Below the pieces are notes generated by a model. It was not told where the DNA came from, did no database searches, and saw nothing but the letters and a program-made list of their open reading frames with translations. DNA of 64,000 nucleotides, taken from assembly GCA_003211515.1 (NCBI GenBank), contig QCSN01000001.1:1-64000 (forward strand). The letters are read 5' to 3'. The stretch's first letter is position 1. Every line of letters starts with the position of its first letter. Of this stretch, positions 42,976 to 48,670 are shown piece after piece. The stretch is from Synechococcus sp. AG-670-F04. Lineage in GTDB: Bacteria > Cyanobacteriota > Cyanobacteriia > PCC-6307 > Cyanobiaceae. A program made the position numbers and the translations under genes.

Positions 42976-43470
42976 ATGAGTGTCGTCCGGGATCTCATCC
43001 TTCAGGCCGATGATGATCTGCGGTATCCCACCAGTGGTGAACTTCGCACCATGGTCGATTTCCTCGATCAGGGTGCCATGCGTGTCTCCGTTGTGAAGGT
43101 GCTGACGGAGAACGAAAAGAAGATCATCGATGAATCCGCAAAACAGTTGTTCAGTCGCAAGCCTGAATACGTCGCTCCGGGTGGCAACGCCTACGGACAA
43201 CGACAGAGGGCTCAATGCCTCCGCGATTACAGCTGGTACCTCCGATTGGTGACCTACGGAGTTCTGGCAGGCAGCACCGAGATGATCCAGGACATCGGTC
43301 TGATCGGTGCTCGCGAGATGTACAACAGCCTCGGCGTCCCGATGCCTGGGATGGTCGAAGCGATGAAGGCGATGAAAACAGCTGCTCTTGCCCTTCTCTC
43401 CGACCAACAGGTGAAAGTGGCATCGCAGTACTTTGATTTCCTAATCCGAGGAATGCAGACTCCCACCTGA
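42976..43470 (+). CDS. apcD: Allophycocyanin alpha-B subunit (ApcD)
   Basis: A 164-residue phycobiliprotein that acts as a terminal emitter in the phycobilisome core, sending energy to the photosystems. The ATG at 42976 gives the canonical opening MSVVRDLILQADDDLRYPTS; the frame is open upstream but does not belong. The chromophore-binding Cys sits in AQCLRDYSWYLRLVTYG at about residue 81. The final helix ends DFLIRGMQTPT. The gene is apart from other phycobilisome genes, as usual for apcD. Just past the stop lies the palindrome at 43476-43491. Confidence 0.95.
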   Translation: MSVVRDLILQADDDLRYPTSGELRTMVDFLDQGAMRVSVVKVLTENEKKIIDESAKQLFSRKPEYVAPGGNAYGQRQRAQCLRDYSWYLRLVTYGVLAGSTEMIQDIGLIGAREMYNSLGVPMPGMVEAMKAMKTAALALLSDQQVKVASQYFDFLIRGMQTPT

Positions 43471-43752
43471 CCAAACGTCTCAATTGAGACGCTTAAAGAG
43501 TCCAATCCAGCGTCTCAAGCTAGATCCTTGATCGGATTGCTTCTAGGGCCTTGCTTCCCGTCGTTAAACAGATCGGCAAAAGCAAGTCAATTTGAATCCA
43601 TTGACCCAGGCAGGCTCACTCTTTGTCTTACTTCGAGTCTTGCCAGAGACTATGACCGCACTTCTGCACTCCTCTGGTTGCTCGTTGCACCATGGATGGC
43701 CTAACGCTGATCTACAACTCTGAGAGGGCGGTCTGCGACAGGGGACATCGTT
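43471..43752. other. Palindrome-containing spacer between apcD and the HExxH gene
   Basis: About 280 bases holding one perfect palindrome (43476-43491) and one extra half-site GTCTCA at 43512-43517. It must contain the promoter of the HExxH gene. I see no additional coding sequence with a convincing start. Confidence 0.5.
43476..43491. promoter_or_regulatory. 16-bp palindrome of GTCTC-N4-GAGAC type
   Basis: CGTCTCAATTGAGACG is a perfect 16-bp palindrome, 5 bases after the apcD stop codon. It shares the outer arms with two other sites at 45235-45248 and 46076-46089. Such a symmetric short site is typical of an operator for a dimeric DNA-binding protein, but a terminator-like hairpin without U-tract is also conceivable. 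Confidence 0.6.
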
Positions 43753-44718
43753 TTGTCGAATCAAAACTTCGATTCTTATTGCAAAGGTTTTAAGGGGGCA
43801 GACACAACCTGGCCATCCCTTCCACTCCCTCTCGATCGACGCGAAACCTGGTGGGTCAAATGGATGGAGCAAACACCGGTGCAACAGCGCTGGTCGAAGC
43901 TTCAAAAACATTTGCCTCAACTCAGGATCCAACCTGGTCGCAACACGCGACGAACTGAGCGGTACAAGAGGCTTGTCTTGCAAGGCAAACAACCAAATAC
44001 CGCCGATCGGGAATGTGCCCCCCTGCTGGCAGACCCCAGAGGATTCAACATGTTTCTGGCAAGTCAACCCTGGGGGACGGTGCCCGTCCTCAGCTTCAAC
44101 AAGCAGGACGATTTCAAGTTGGCCCTGCGATGCCTGGCCTTCCGTTGTGAGGACGTCAATCTGCCAGCAACGGTTCACTCCCAGGCCATTAGCGGCTTGC
44201 CCCACTGGGGCTTGATAAGAGAAATCGACTCCAAGTGTCGCTGCCAGATTCTGCTCCTACATCGAGCCCCTTACAGCTCCATCCCTGCAGACCAGGTTCC
44301 TGGTGAACCAGATGCGGCGACATGGATTGAGCAATCGCAACAATGGCGACTAGCCCATGAACTCACCCACATTGCATGCCAGCGACTGGTGGGAGAAATG
44401 CGCATCAATCTCTTCGACGAACTGCTGGCCGATGCGGTGGGCATGCTTGCCGGGCTTGGCATGTATAGCGCCAAACTTTTTCGACAAGGATTAGGCCTCA
44501 AAAAAGACGCCACATTGATGCACAACGCTCGGGCTGAAGTTTATGTATCCAACCTGAAGCCAGAGGATCACAGGCGAGCGTTCCTCGCTGTTCTGGAACG
44601 AGCAGAGGAGCTAGAAAAACTTCTGAACGATGGCTGCTTGCCGCGCGAACCGATGCCTTTGCTGCAAATTCTTGTACGACAACGCCTCAATCAGCCGATC
44701 ACCGTTTGTGGAGCTTGA
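43753..44718 (+). CDS. Uncharacterised HExxH protein, putative zinc metallopeptidase
   Basis: A 321-residue soluble protein from a TTG at 43753 preceded by AGGGG. A later ATG at 43861 is possible. The N-terminal half is basic and of unknown fold. In the second half, WRLAHELTHIACQRLV carries an HExxH zinc motif (HELTH, residues about 201-205). A conserved-looking Glu in DELLADAVGM follows 18 residues later, the geometry of gluzincin peptidases. The C-terminal 90 residues are helical. No signal peptide is visible, so it probably acts in the cytoplasm. I cannot place it in a named family. Palindromic sites lie on both sides. Confidence 0.7.
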   Translation: MSNQNFDSYCKGFKGADTTWPSLPLPLDRRETWWVKWMEQTPVQQRWSKLQKHLPQLRIQPGRNTRRTERYKRLVLQGKQPNTADRECAPLLADPRGFNMFLASQPWGTVPVLSFNKQDDFKLALRCLAFRCEDVNLPATVHSQAISGLPHWGLIREIDSKCRCQILLLHRAPYSSIPADQVPGEPDAATWIEQSQQWRLAHELTHIACQRLVGEMRINLFDELLADAVGMLAGLGMYSAKLFRQGLGLKKDATLMHNARAEVYVSNLKPEDHRRAFLAVLERAEELEKLLNDGCLPREPMPLLQILVRQRLNQPITVCGA

Positions 44719-44864
44719 AATCATGAACTGCATCGGCTCACCGCTTTCAATCAACACCAAGCCGCGAAATCCTTCCCAGATGCCTCACGCATGAACCAAA
44801 ATGAGACACATCAATAGATTCAGATAAGACTAGCAAGACAAAGCGATCGAAGGCTTCAATAAAG

Positions 44865-44895
44865 TTGCGTACCTGTGTTTAAGACAGGTACGCAA
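44865..44895. repeat. Perfect 12-bp inverted repeat with 7-nt centre
   Basis: TTGCGTACCTGT and ACAGGTACGCAA are exact reverse complements around a 7-nt centre (GTTTAAG). No U-tract follows on either strand, so this is not a typical terminator. It may be an operator or the stem of a small RNA. Same geometry as the element at 908-938, with unrelated sequence. Confidence 0.7.
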
Positions 44896-45104
44896 AGGGC
44901 AGAATCATTTCCAGGACTGTCGTCCAACTGCAATGCCATGCTTCTGGACTGGACCTGGACAGCGCAATCCTGCTTTTTAACTGATTTGATGCTGACAAAA
45001 CGGAAGCCGAACCCCCACCCCCCACACGCGCTTCCCACAATTAAAAACATCAAAAATTGCCAATTTAATATTCTAAAAAATCGCAAATAAGACCGAAAAC
45101 AATT

Positions 45105-45120
45105 CTAGTCATAAGACTAG
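45105..45120. promoter_or_regulatory. 16-bp palindrome CTAGTC-N4-GACTAG
   Basis: CTAGTC and GACTAG are exact complements around ATAA. It has the same size as the GTCTC palindromes but differs in the arm sequence (AGTC rather than GTCTC). It lies in the gene-free region between the HExxH and YqhA genes. Possibly a relative of the same binding site; that is inference. Confidence 0.4.
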
Positions 45121-45234
45121 GCCAAGCTCTCTAAGAATCTTCCATCGATCCGCCTCTGCCTGGGAGCCAATCAAGGCAGTCAATCAAGAGGCATCAGCAA
45201 ATCGCCCCCAACAACAAAAGAGAATGGCGCAAGT

Positions 45235-45248
45235 GTCTCGTATGAGAC
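45235..45248. promoter_or_regulatory. GTCTC-N4-GAGAC palindrome upstream of yqhA
   Basis: GTCTCGTATGAGAC lies about 95 bases upstream of the yqhA start codon. It has the same arms as the sites at 43477-43490 and 46076-46089, with a different central four bases. Its position fits an operator for the YqhA gene. Confidence 0.6.
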
Positions 45249-45340
45249 TAATTCTAGGTCTTAAGCCTGGAGCCAGCCGAGACTTGCAAGACAGAATCTC
45301 CCATGCCTCGGTTTACGGTCGAAACATCTGATTCCACTCC

Positions 45341-45931
45341 ATGCCAAGCAACAGCGTCCTTGAGCGACGCTTCGAACGGCTGATCTGGCGTTTTCGCCTG
45401 GTCAGCATTGTTCCAGTTCTGCTCAGTCTGATGGGGAGTGTTGGATGTTTCCTCGTCGGGGCGCGGGAAATCCTGCAGGCCCTCGATGAATTGCTCTTCC
45501 ACAAATCGGCCCAGGCACATGAGACCGCCCTCGAGAAAAGCGTCGCCCAAATCGTTGGTGGAGTGGATTATTTCGTCATCGGCATCGTCTTATTGATTTT
45601 TGGCTATGGCATTTACGAACTCGTGATCTCTGACATTGATCCACGCCATGAAGGGGAGCTGGAGCAACACCGCAATCTTCTTTCCGTCGGAAGCCTTGAA
45701 AGCCTCAAACAAAACCTCACCAACGTGATTGTGGTGGCCTTGATCGTCTCAGCGTTCAAGAAAATGATTGGCTTCCCGGTGGAAAATACCACCGAGATGC
45801 TGACCCTCTGTACCTGTGTCGCCCTCTTGGCGCTGAGTGCATGGTTAATTGTGCGAAGCCACAGCACCACACAGCAATTCGAACAAAACAATCACACGCC
45901 CAGAATGAGACGCAAAAAAAGACTTAATTAA
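45341..45931 (+). CDS. YqhA/UPF0114-family membrane protein
   Basis: A 196-residue membrane protein with about four hydrophobic segments: VSIVPVLLSLMGSVGCFLVG, YFVIGIVLLIFGYGIYELVI, NVIVVALIVSAFKKM and MLTLCTCVALLALSAWLIV. The combination with the internal motif GYGIYELVISDIDP is characteristic of YqhA (UPF0114). No function is established for the family; some members affect ion balance. The ATG at 45341 is the first in frame. Downstream, a TGAGAC and a GTCTCA form an inverted pair around the stop codon. Confidence 0.85.
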   Translation: MPSNSVLERRFERLIWRFRLVSIVPVLLSLMGSVGCFLVGAREILQALDELLFHKSAQAHETALEKSVAQIVGGVDYFVIGIVLLIFGYGIYELVISDIDPRHEGELEQHRNLLSVGSLESLKQNLTNVIVVALIVSAFKKMIGFPVENTTEMLTLCTCVALLALSAWLIVRSHSTTQQFEQNNHTPRMRRKKRLN

Positions 45932-45938
45932 GGTCTCA
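45906..45938. repeat. Inverted TGAGAC / GTCTCA pair around the yqhA stop
   Basis: TGAGAC at 45906-45911 and its complement GTCTCA at 45933-45938 flank a 21-base, A/T-rich spacer containing the yqhA stop codon. A hairpin with a 6-bp stem is possible but weak. More notable is the recurrence of the same arms as in the palindromes nearby. Confidence 0.4.
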
Positions 45939-46075
45939 TCCGGTTTCAATGCGACTTGAAGCAGCAACAGACTCTTGTGAGTTTCGAGAGCCTTGCCGAT
46001 GAAGTCGGAAGATCAGGACAGAACAACATGCAAGTCAACTGAACAATGCAAGACGCAAGATGAGACCTGACCTGC

Positions 46076-46089
46076 GTCTCGCCTGAGAC
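46076..46089. promoter_or_regulatory. GTCTC-N4-GAGAC palindrome at the end of the RHH/J-domain gene
   Basis: GTCTCGCCTGAGAC lies 8 bases from the stop of the RHH/J-domain gene, in the gap between that gene and yqhA. A further TGAGACC at 46061-46067 makes this a dense cluster of the same arms (TGAGACC repeated at 46061 and 46084). It shares arms with the sites near apcD and yqhA. Confidence 0.55.
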
Positions 46090-46096
46090 CAATGAA

Positions 46097-47095
46097 TTAA
46101 CCCTGGCGGTACACCCCGCTCAGCAATTGGTAAGCCTCAGAGACGCGACGCATTGATTCCTGAGAACCACCAGTATCAGGATGAGCATTTTTTGCAGCTG
46201 TTTTAAATGCATCCTTGATGGATTTCAGGGTCACCTCAGCACCTGGCTGGGTGGAAATCCCTAACAATTTCAGAGCGCCCAACACGGTCATGGTGGATTC
46301 AAGCGTCTCAAACGAGGTGACTTTCTTGCTGCGACGGAACCGATTCACGAACCGTCGAACCATCGTTGGCATCCGTTCGGCCAGGGTGCTCGTGGCAAAC
46401 GGATCCTCAAGCGTTCCTGCAACCACCATCACGCGACCGAGACTGGGCTGATCCATTCCCCACTCCGAGCAGAGTCGCTGAACAGCCGAATTCGCTCCGG
46501 TCCACGTGAAGGGTTCCCCTTCACTGGCCTCCACGCTGGGCCACAGATCCCGCGAAAGCCAGGTGATCGCTGCCTCCACAACCGTGTTGCCGGGTTGTTG
46601 ACCGTAGAGCGAAGTCCAGTGAGCGTCGGCTGCACGTTCAGCTTCTACAAGGTCCTGATGACACACCACCGAAACCACCGGATCAGATTCCGACGCTTTA
46701 ACAGATGATCCTGCTTGAAGAGTCTGTTTGAGCGTTTTGCTGCGACGACGCACGAAGCCGGGCAGATCGATCCCCCCTCCTGAGTCTGCGCTAGGGCCCG
46801 CAGGCAGTGATGCGGAAGGATCGGAGGCCTCAGCGGATCGACTGTCTTTCGTCTTGATCAGAACCAGGCTGCTGGCTTCATGGACACTTGCCTGGGGATT
46901 GACGGAGACCGGATCCGATTCAGGCTGTTCGTCACTGTCATCCTCCTCAGGTTCAAGCAGATATCTCAACAGATGCTCAATGACCGCTCCACGGGAACGG
47001 ACACCGTATTCAGGCTTTAGGCCATCCAACGCGCTGATCAGGTCATCCGACAGAGTCAGCGATGTCTGACGTTTTTTAGAGCCCTCGCCAGACAA
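46097..47095 (-). CDS. Ribbon-helix-helix / J-domain fusion protein
   Basis: A 332-residue protein from a TTG start. The N-terminus resembles a CopG-type ribbon-helix-helix DNA-binding domain (TSLTLSDDLISALDGLKPEY then GVRSRGAVIEHLLRYLL, residues about 10-50). A long acidic, Ser/Pro-rich linker follows (50-130). The middle (about 145-255) is an unknown helical domain. The C-terminal 65 residues look like a J domain with the HPD motif in AAKNAHPDTGGS (KLLGISTQPGAEVTLKSIKD before it). The J domain suggests DnaK recruitment. Together they could deliver a chaperone to DNA-bound targets; this is inference. It is 24 bases downstream of the DUF3370 gene. Confidence 0.75.
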   Translation of the reverse strand: MSGEGSKKRQTSLTLSDDLISALDGLKPEYGVRSRGAVIEHLLRYLLEPEEDDSDEQPESDPVSVNPQASVHEASSLVLIKTKDSRSAEASDPSASLPAGPSADSGGGIDLPGFVRRRSKTLKQTLQAGSSVKASESDPVVSVVCHQDLVEAERAADAHWTSLYGQQPGNTVVEAAITWLSRDLWPSVEASEGEPFTWTGANSAVQRLCSEWGMDQPSLGRVMVVAGTLEDPFATSTLAERMPTMVRRFVNRFRRSKKVTSFETLESTMTVLGALKLLGISTQPGAEVTLKSIKDAFKTAAKNAHPDTGGSQESMRRVSEAYQLLSGVYRQG

Positions 47096-47119: not shown

Positions 47120-48670
47120 TTATCGACCTTGCAACTGACGTAACCACTCTTGTTGCCGACGAATGGCATTGTCATAACCCTGGTTCTGCTGGGGAATGAC
47201 CGGCAGCAGCGGTGGCGGTGGTGTTGTCCGCATCGTGGACGTGCCCGCAGCGGGCGGAGCGATAGTTAATGCAGGAACGGACTTGATCGGCGGCGGCGGC
47301 GTCTTGGGTTGCACCGTGCGATCCTTCTGTTGATCCAGGCGCTCGCGCGCTTCTCGTTGCTGCTCCTTGCTGCGGTGCAGCATTGCCAACTGCTGAACGG
47401 GAACCACGCTGAGGAGATGTCCAGGGGTGGCATCAGCTGGGTAGACCAGACTCACTTTGACGGCATTGGTCTGCCCAGGGACCAGATTCAAATCGGTTAA
47501 GGCCAGGCTTTCACCGGAGCGGAGTCCAACATGTACCTCGCGGTAGCCCTCCTTAGTTTCAATCCTGATCGAACCTCGAAAAGCGGTGAAAGTCTTCTTT
47601 CCTGACACCACAGGATGACTCATAACCAGTTGGTGCGCACCAGAGCCGACAAGGTTGAGAGTGACGTCGTAACGAACGCCATAGGTCCCGATGTTGTTCA
47701 ACGCTGAATCCACCATGCGTGTAGCCAGCTGATTCACCTGAACATCACGTGTGCCGAAATTGTGTCGTGCAGTGCTGGTCAACGGCACATGCAGTGCACC
47801 TTGCTGCAGATCGTGACTGATCGAGGCGCGATACGCATCGCCAAGAGCCACCCCAGCCACTCTTGAAAACACACGCCCCATCTGGATTTCACGGATTCGG
47901 TTTAGATAGATCCGTCCTGGAGCCAGTCGTCCAGCATTAAGAACCGAAAAAAGTTCGGCTTCATTCTTGGTTTCCTCCGCTGCAACCACCGCTAGGGAGA
48001 AGGGCCCATCACTTCGGCCACGCAACAATCCATTGGCGATGCCGCGCGCAGGGAGCACGGTGCTCACCACAACTTTCCGTCCACCGGGCGGGATGACAAC
48101 ACTGGATGGGAGCTGACGATCCAACTCATTACGAAGCATCTGAACAGCCGTAGCGTCACCGGGACCGGTGTTCCAGGGACGCTTCCCAAGGGGCTTCACC
48201 CCCATGAGGTTGTTGGGGTGATAGGGAGCCTGAAAGCTGTTCTTGACTGAACCCCGGTCAAATTTCAAGGTGACGGGGCTTCCACCAGGGTTGCTGGCAA
48301 TCAGAGCCAGGGTGAGCAGGCCCCGCGCCCGACGTCCACCCAGTTTGCTGCGGTCGTCTGGGTAGTACTTGTGGTGCATATGCACCCCAAACTCACCATT
48401 GAAGGTGTAACCAGGATTTCTAAGGGGGCGCTTGGTTTCTGCAGCAATTGCTGATCCTGCAGCGGTATTCACGAGGATTCCTGGTCCAGTGACGATTTCC
48501 GGCTGATTGGAATGAAGGACAGGAACGTTATTGAAGTTGCCGTTGAGAGCTCTCGCACGTTGACCAGCCATCAGCGCGACGTAGGCCGACGCTGTGGGGG
48601 CGATCACCATCTCGGCGGCAACAACCGAGACTCCAGCCAGGACCAGAATTGGGACTCTGCTGCGCGTCAT
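47120..48670 (-). CDS. DUF3370 secreted protein
   Basis: A 516-residue protein with an N-terminal signal peptide (VPILVLAGVSVVAAEMVIAP, cut near residue 29). The main body (about 30-430) is the DUF3370 domain known from cyanobacteria: PVLHSNQPEIVTGPGILV, YTFNGEFGVHMHHKYYPDD, and SNPGGSPVTLKFDRGS. The C-terminal part is Pro/Thr/Gln-rich and probably disordered. The fold is predicted beta-rich. It probably acts in the periplasm or at the cell surface; the function is unknown. The RHH/J gene lies directly downstream on the same strand. Confidence 0.85.
   Translation of the reverse strand: MTRSRVPILVLAGVSVVAAEMVIAPTASAYVALMAGQRARALNGNFNNVPVLHSNQPEIVTGPGILVNTAAGSAIAAETKRPLRNPGYTFNGEFGVHMHHKYYPDDRSKLGGRRARGLLTLALIASNPGGSPVTLKFDRGSVKNSFQAPYHPNNLMGVKPLGKRPWNTGPGDATAVQMLRNELDRQLPSSVVIPPGGRKVVVSTVLPARGIANGLLRGRSDGPFSLAVVAAEETKNEAELFSVLNAGRLAPGRIYLNRIREIQMGRVFSRVAGVALGDAYRASISHDLQQGALHVPLTSTARHNFGTRDVQVNQLATRMVDSALNNIGTYGVRYDVTLNLVGSGAHQLVMSHPVVSGKKTFTAFRGSIRIETKEGYREVHVGLRSGESLALTDLNLVPGQTNAVKVSLVYPADATPGHLLSVVPVQQLAMLHRSKEQQREARERLDQQKDRTVQPKTPPPPIKSVPALTIAPPAAGTSTMRTTPPPPLLPVIPQQNQGYDNAIRRQQEWLRQLQGR

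Follow-up and report, generated by a model that had tools for sequence, protein, structure and literature searches.

The stretch of DNA examined here, hereafter the window, comprises 64,000 nucleotides of a contig of Synechococcus sp. AG-670-F04, and its locus of interest lies between apcD and a gene encoding a protein in which a ribbon-helix-helix (RHH) domain is joined to a J domain (RHH-J). This locus is a replication terminus, and it probably combines a dif-like recombination site with a surrounding array of sites bound by the RHH protein. The evidence, all of it read from sequence, consists of a central palindrome, the half-site array around it, the quantised spacing of the half-sites, the single-copy occurrence, the position opposite dnaN and the synteny with the RHH-J gene.

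A dif-like palindrome at the replication terminus

An earlier note on this DNA had drawn attention to three short GTCTC-N4-GAGAC palindromes in this region. The strongest feature of the locus, missing from that note, is a palindrome of 31 bp, TTGCGTACCTGTGTTTAAGACAGGTACGCAA, at 44865-44895, with a 27-bp core at 44867-44893. Its architecture, TTGCGTACCTG-N9-CAGGTACGCAA over 27-31 bp, is that of two inverted conserved 9-bp arms around a 9-bp centre and fits the layout of dif sites, with arms of about 9-11 bp and a centre of 6-11 bp. Conservation was followed in 49 homologous loci, of which 29 belong to the genus and 20, nearly all from other genera, were fetched by the palindrome alone. With the exact arm word the palindrome was found in 27 of the 29 genus loci, and with a looser pattern in all 49, the arm bases being conserved and the centre less so, although some arm bases had been fixed beforehand by the search pattern. 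An order-wide scan recovered the palindrome in 159 of 399 genomes, mostly as one copy per genome and with a control near 0, and a single copy was present in the 1.2 Mb read of the relative G004, which amount to 57% of that genome. Diverged palindromes were observed at the same place in genera missed by the pattern, including high-light Prochlorococcus. Neither the RHH-J gene nor a palindrome match was found in G029, G131, G207, G206 and G216.

In 13 complete relatives, the distance of the locus from dnaN amounts to 0.468-0.517 of the circle, as calculated from the listed positions. The GC-skew profile, made for one genome (G004), keeps a positive sign between dnaN and about 0.95 Mb and turns negative beyond; its cumulative curve peaks at 961,654, 28 kb from the palindrome (989,730). 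The position opposite dnaN and the change of skew sign in G004 therefore identify the locus as the replication terminus. In G047, a member of the Prochlorococcus group, the RHH gene occupies 829,624-830,628. For Prochlorococcus MED4, a published account describes vesicle DNA that peaks at a ter/dif position near mid-genome, at 826-832 kb, its consulted passages naming no sequence for the site (PMC10913375); the G047 gene possibly corresponds to this interval of MED4.

A half-site array in fixed register around the palindrome

The three short palindromes form the conspicuous portion of a more extensive array of RAGAC half-sites. GTCTC-N4-GAGAC occurs in the window exactly at 43477-43490, 45235-45248 and 46076-46089, where the earlier note had placed it, with no fourth copy, and the additional half-sites reported at 43512, 44803, 45907/45933 and 46062 are present as well. 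The claim that such a recurrence is unlikely by chance was borne out, the shuffle mean being 0.09 and none of 100 shuffles reaching 3. At the scale of the whole genome (2.25 Mb in a fragmented assembly, 68% complete) five copies were counted, three of them at the locus, and the 33 relatives have 0-8 copies each, a background comparable to that of a reversed-pattern control. The motif thus clusters at this locus instead of being spread over the genome, and a general genomic motif was ruled out. The extent of the array had nevertheless been understated, the segment 43477-46090 holding 25 of the window's 27 in-register RAGAC pairs.

Within the apcD-to-RHH intergenic regions of the 29 genus loci, GAGAC was found 185 times against 51 expected and AAGAC 150 times against 49, and the same k-mers lead in the 20 loci of other genera. 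The distances between paired half-sites are sharply quantised. Inverted pairs accumulate at a spacing of 14 (+-, 44 observed against 1.9 expected), 26 (+-, 26 against 1.9) and, in the everted orientation which corresponds to the GTCTC-N4-GAGAC palindrome, 9 (-+, 33 against 2.2); direct pairs (++) accumulate at 12 (35 against 3.6) and 35 (40 against 3.6), and the remaining distances are mostly near or below chance. These genus-level statistics partly reflect common descent and were checked against the loci of other genera, in which the same spacing classes are repeated.

The core module of the array is RAGAC-N7-RAGAC-N9-GTCTY, with half-sites at 0(+), 12(+) and 26(-), and nearly all close pairs of the Prochlorococcus loci belong to it. 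Matches to at least 13 of its 15 positions number 122 in the 49 loci against 0-1 in shuffles. Two perfect (15/15) copies are present in the window, both on the plus strand: GAGAC-N7-AAGAC-N9-GTCTC at 45907-45937, overlapping the end of yqhA, and AAGAC-N7-GAGAC-N9-GTCTC starting at 46050, in a segment (46050-46089) that also has a half-site at +35 and holds the third short palindrome. On the other side of the 31-bp palindrome, a first cluster at 43477-43516 holds the first short palindrome, with -+ (9) and +- (26) pairs and a 14/15 module at 43486, and a second at 43625-43650 shows -- (12) and -+ (9, 21) pairs. A third cluster, on the plus strand immediately left of the palindrome (44803-44839), has direct spacings of 23 and 32. 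To the right are a plus-strand pair at 45089-45117 with a direct spacing of 24 and a fourth cluster at 45235-45292, which holds the second short palindrome and has spacings of 9, 14, 21, 23, 35 and 44.

In most Synechococcus-type loci the array flanks the palindrome on both sides, and in-register pairs reach 2.6 per kb up to 1 kb from the palindrome against 0.07 per kb beyond. In G004, 11 in-register pairs per 1.2 kb were counted at the locus against a mean of 0.08 over the 1.2 Mb read, the maximum away from it being 3, in a segment 3 kb off. The array thus extends over about 1-4 kb around the palindrome, the pairs of G004 being at background beyond about 4 kb. A mobile repeat was ruled out, since the 1.2 Mb of G004 hold no further copies.

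The RHH-J-domain protein and a candidate recombinase

The RHH-J gene (46097-47095, minus strand) encodes a protein of 332 amino acids with the RHH domain at about residues 11-48 and the J domain at about 278-326, the latter carrying an HPD motif that is invariant among the homologues. Full-length homologues are present in nearly every family member sampled, and none was found outside the family in a sample of the phylum. Among 20 aligned members, Pfam DnaJ was matched in all and RHH_1 in 11 (best 1.3e-5), the RHH_1 match of the window protein being weak and below the cut-off (E 0.0047). Of the N-terminal beta-strand and two helices typical of CopG-type RHH proteins, the structure model has helices at 17-30 and 35-47, with the strand unassigned in the monomer. 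A structure search with the full model gave J-type matches of up to Z 10.8, with a root-mean-square deviation of 1.8 over 63 aligned positions (residues 269-332), and the model thus supports a J fold of the C-terminal region; the matches concern essentially the J domain only, and the lack of matches elsewhere carries no weight for the RHH part or the conserved middle domain. The middle region (residues ~140-258 of the window protein) is highly conserved, with the motifs HW..LYG..P..VVEAAM.WL..DIW and LEDPF, and matched no Pfam family.

Across the family, Prochlorococcus included, the palindrome sits between rlmD/apcD and the RHH-J gene. The 20 loci fetched by the palindrome have rlmD/apcD on one side, except L169, and the RHH-J gene on the other wherever the contig extends that far. 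In all genera whose contigs are long enough, RHH-J is the one gene that goes with the array, also in L169, where rlmD and apcD are missing. The earlier note had considered the RHH protein as the binder in a speculative manner; its synteny with the array and its co-absence with the palindrome make it the candidate, and its binding to the half-sites is suggested by this co-occurrence.

A tyrosine recombinase of about 384 amino acids, with conserved R238, K265, R330, H353 and Y362, is near-universal in the family, with no match or just a weak one in G029, G206 and G216. In the window's own genome its copy lies within L269:1493-2848, on the minus strand. It is no recognised XerC/D/S. Judging from synteny and co-occurrence, it may be the enzyme acting on the palindrome.

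Several observations weigh against a terminus with a dif-like site and an RHH-bound array. The recombinase is far below the curated XerS/XerD cut-offs (20.9 bits against 267 for the XerS model), its gene is not adjacent to the palindrome (in G022, for example, it is at 764,808 and the locus at 1,292,000), and G131 and G207, which lack RHH-J and any match to the palindrome, keep it at 59% identity. The terminus system of these two genomes and of G206, G216 and G029 may be different. In a comparison made by eye only, the arms showed no clear match to the dif sites of E. coli and B. subtilis quoted in PMC3025954. The locus L161 has the palindrome and no in-register pair, and common descent explains some of the genus-level spacing signal. 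Finally, the 64-kb window, too short and noisy, has by itself no clean skew switch, and the position of the locus in the window's own genome was deduced from the relatives because of its fragmented and incomplete assembly.

Neighbouring genes

The order rlmD(-), apcD(+), optionally yqhA(+), RHH-J(-) and DUF3370(-) is kept in 28 relatives of the genus. Where it occurs, apcD (42979-43470, plus strand) is the conserved neighbour on the left; several genera lack it at the locus, and it is not part of the proposed mechanism. The gene for a DUF7005 protein with an HELTH (HExxH) motif (43753-44718, plus strand) is inserted into the array in this genome only among 34, the 33 genus relatives having no homologue. 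Also inside the array, yqhA/UPF0114 (45341-45931, plus strand) is a variable cargo, missing from the locus in about half of the genus and often broken in the relatives. It is split by stops or fragmented in G004, G013, G015, G027 and G028 (L053, L055, L056, L058), and the broken copies suggest a decay of genes inserted at the terminus site.

DUF3370 (47120-48670, minus strand) lies directly upstream of RHH-J in the same direction and is its probable operon partner. A 13/15 match to the module covers its first codons in the window (48627-48657); array-like half-sites are found over the same codons in G004 (C1, 986295-986337) and in L123, and direct spacings of 12, 23 and 35 occur there in G004 and G014. 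These half-sites could represent an autoregulatory operator or a coding constraint. A search of the segment from 40 to 50 kb of the window against Rfam matched no RNA family.

Alternative explanations

The earlier note had read the sites as those of a local dimeric regulator. What is retained of that reading is a cis-acting protein with sequence specificity, probably a dimer or oligomer, but the idea that the sites are operators of a transcriptional regulator, perhaps the RHH protein, controlling the genes of the locus has become quite improbable. RHH proteins commonly act as repressors, a few sites are found about 100 bp upstream of yqhA here and in G002, and those over the 5' end of the DUF3370 gene in G004 and G014 make autoregulation possible. 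Local regulation fails as an explanation, however, since convergent genes border the array, which is situated at the 3' end of the RHH gene and outlives the genes that it would regulate, persisting where DUF7005, yqhA or apcD is missing as intervening genes come and go. It is moreover centred on the terminus palindrome, and no sigma-70-like promoter was found in the region. It is also rather unlikely that another protein, such as the tyrosine recombinase, an FtsK/SpoIIIE-like translocase or a nucleoid protein, binds the array with RHH-J as a mere syntenic neighbour. The connection between RHH and RAGAC comes, it is true, from synteny and co-occurrence and not from a direct link, and G131 and G207 carry the recombinase without RHH-J; but RHH-J is the only gene accompanying the array in each genus with enough contig, L169 again included, the half-sites occur in both orientations, unlike the polar motifs that guide FtsK, and the 1.2 Mb of G004 show no enrichment elsewhere, contrary to what is expected of a global protein.

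The palindrome could also be viewed as a bidirectional intrinsic terminator unrelated to recombination, in line with its perfect hairpin between convergent genes and with the terminator-like score of the minus strand in the window. Such a function is very unlikely because few loci have a T-rich tail beside the palindrome (0 of 49 forward and 5 of 49 reverse); in addition, the arm sequence itself is conserved, with 14 asymmetric against 10 symmetric changes in the 49 loci, and the palindrome occurs about once per genome at a fixed terminus position. A replication-fork trap of the Tus/Ter or RTP type in place of a dif site would agree with the location at the skew switch and with the protein-site arrays on both sides, and is nonetheless very improbable: fork traps use oriented sites, whereas the half-sites here are non-polar relative to the palindrome, which a trap would moreover leave unexplained.

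Proposed mechanism and relation to known systems

If the locus is a terminus with a dif-like site and an RHH-bound array, the 27-31-bp palindrome would be the picocyanobacterial dif, the core site at which a tyrosine recombinase resolves dimeric chromosomes, and the RAGAC-N7-RAGAC-N9-GTCTY modules around it would serve as a nucleation array for the neighbouring RHH-J protein. The protein would coat the array in a fixed helical register, and the coated array would mark, fold or align the terminus, so that, late in the cell cycle, only paired sister termini would recombine; more speculatively, DnaK, recruited by the J domain, might load the complex or take it off. A family-specific terminus complex of the Prochlorococcus/Synechococcus type is conceivable but doubtful. 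In such a complex, RHH-J would assemble on a lattice of three half-sites surrounding a dif of a new type and would gate a single, divergent tyrosine recombinase, and Hsp70 (DnaK) would be brought to the chromosome terminus.

A terminus protein with an RHH domain, MatP, is known, and the MatP/matS system of enterobacteria resembles the present locus in combining such a protein with terminus-specific sites. The matS sites are, however, scattered over a large Ter domain, whereas the array here remains within about 1-4 kb of the palindrome; the half-site is another one, and the RHH domain stands at the N-terminus of a protein that also has a J domain. The half-site of MetJ is AGAC, and MetJ metboxes as well as the ParG, omega and ParR centromeres share with this array short direct and inverted half-sites at fixed spacing, but differ from it in its location at the terminus beside a dif-like core, its three-site 0/12/26 module and its J-domain fusion. 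Accessory protein sites next to a core are found in the plasmid cer/psi systems with ArgR/PepA, where about 180 bp of such sites impose topology on a core of about 30 bp (PMC5357621), unlike the present locus, which is chromosomal, has no known ArgR/PepA sites and, in most loci of the Synechococcus type, has its core flanked by the array to left and right.

In dif/XerCD, difSL/XerS and difH/XerH, as here, a single-copy inverted repeat of about 28-31 bp is found at the terminus of hosts that encode a tyrosine recombinase, and difSL has the same length of 31 bp (PMC5357621). Single-recombinase systems with sites of about 31 bp exist (PMC5357621), and the symmetric arms of the palindrome would fit a system of this XerS/XerH type. 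The palindrome seems to differ from known dif sites in its arm sequence, and it differs from them in its 9-bp centre and the dense flanking array. Moreover, xerS and xerH are adjacent to difSL and difH (PMC5357621), unlike the recombinase gene here, which is away from the site and whose product is below the XerS/XerD model cut-offs.

Attempts to predict dif were unsuccessful throughout the Cyanobacteria (PMC3025954), and a genome paper of later date likewise reports no predicted dif for them (PMC6416890). In the openly licensed literature, no paper joining ribbon-helix-helix, DnaJ domain and Synechococcus was found, and an earlier description may exist elsewhere. Taken together, the motifs point to a terminus site that earlier surveys missed in cyanobacteria, and not to a switch of neighbouring genes. 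A 31-bp candidate core, a binding module, a candidate binder and a candidate recombinase bring chromosome resolution and segregation in these globally abundant phototrophs within reach of direct tests. The palindrome and its array may be relevant to the terminus-rich DNA described from Prochlorococcus vesicles (PMC10913375) and, should the proposed reading be true, the fusion of RHH and J domains would join the few known terminus-marking proteins.

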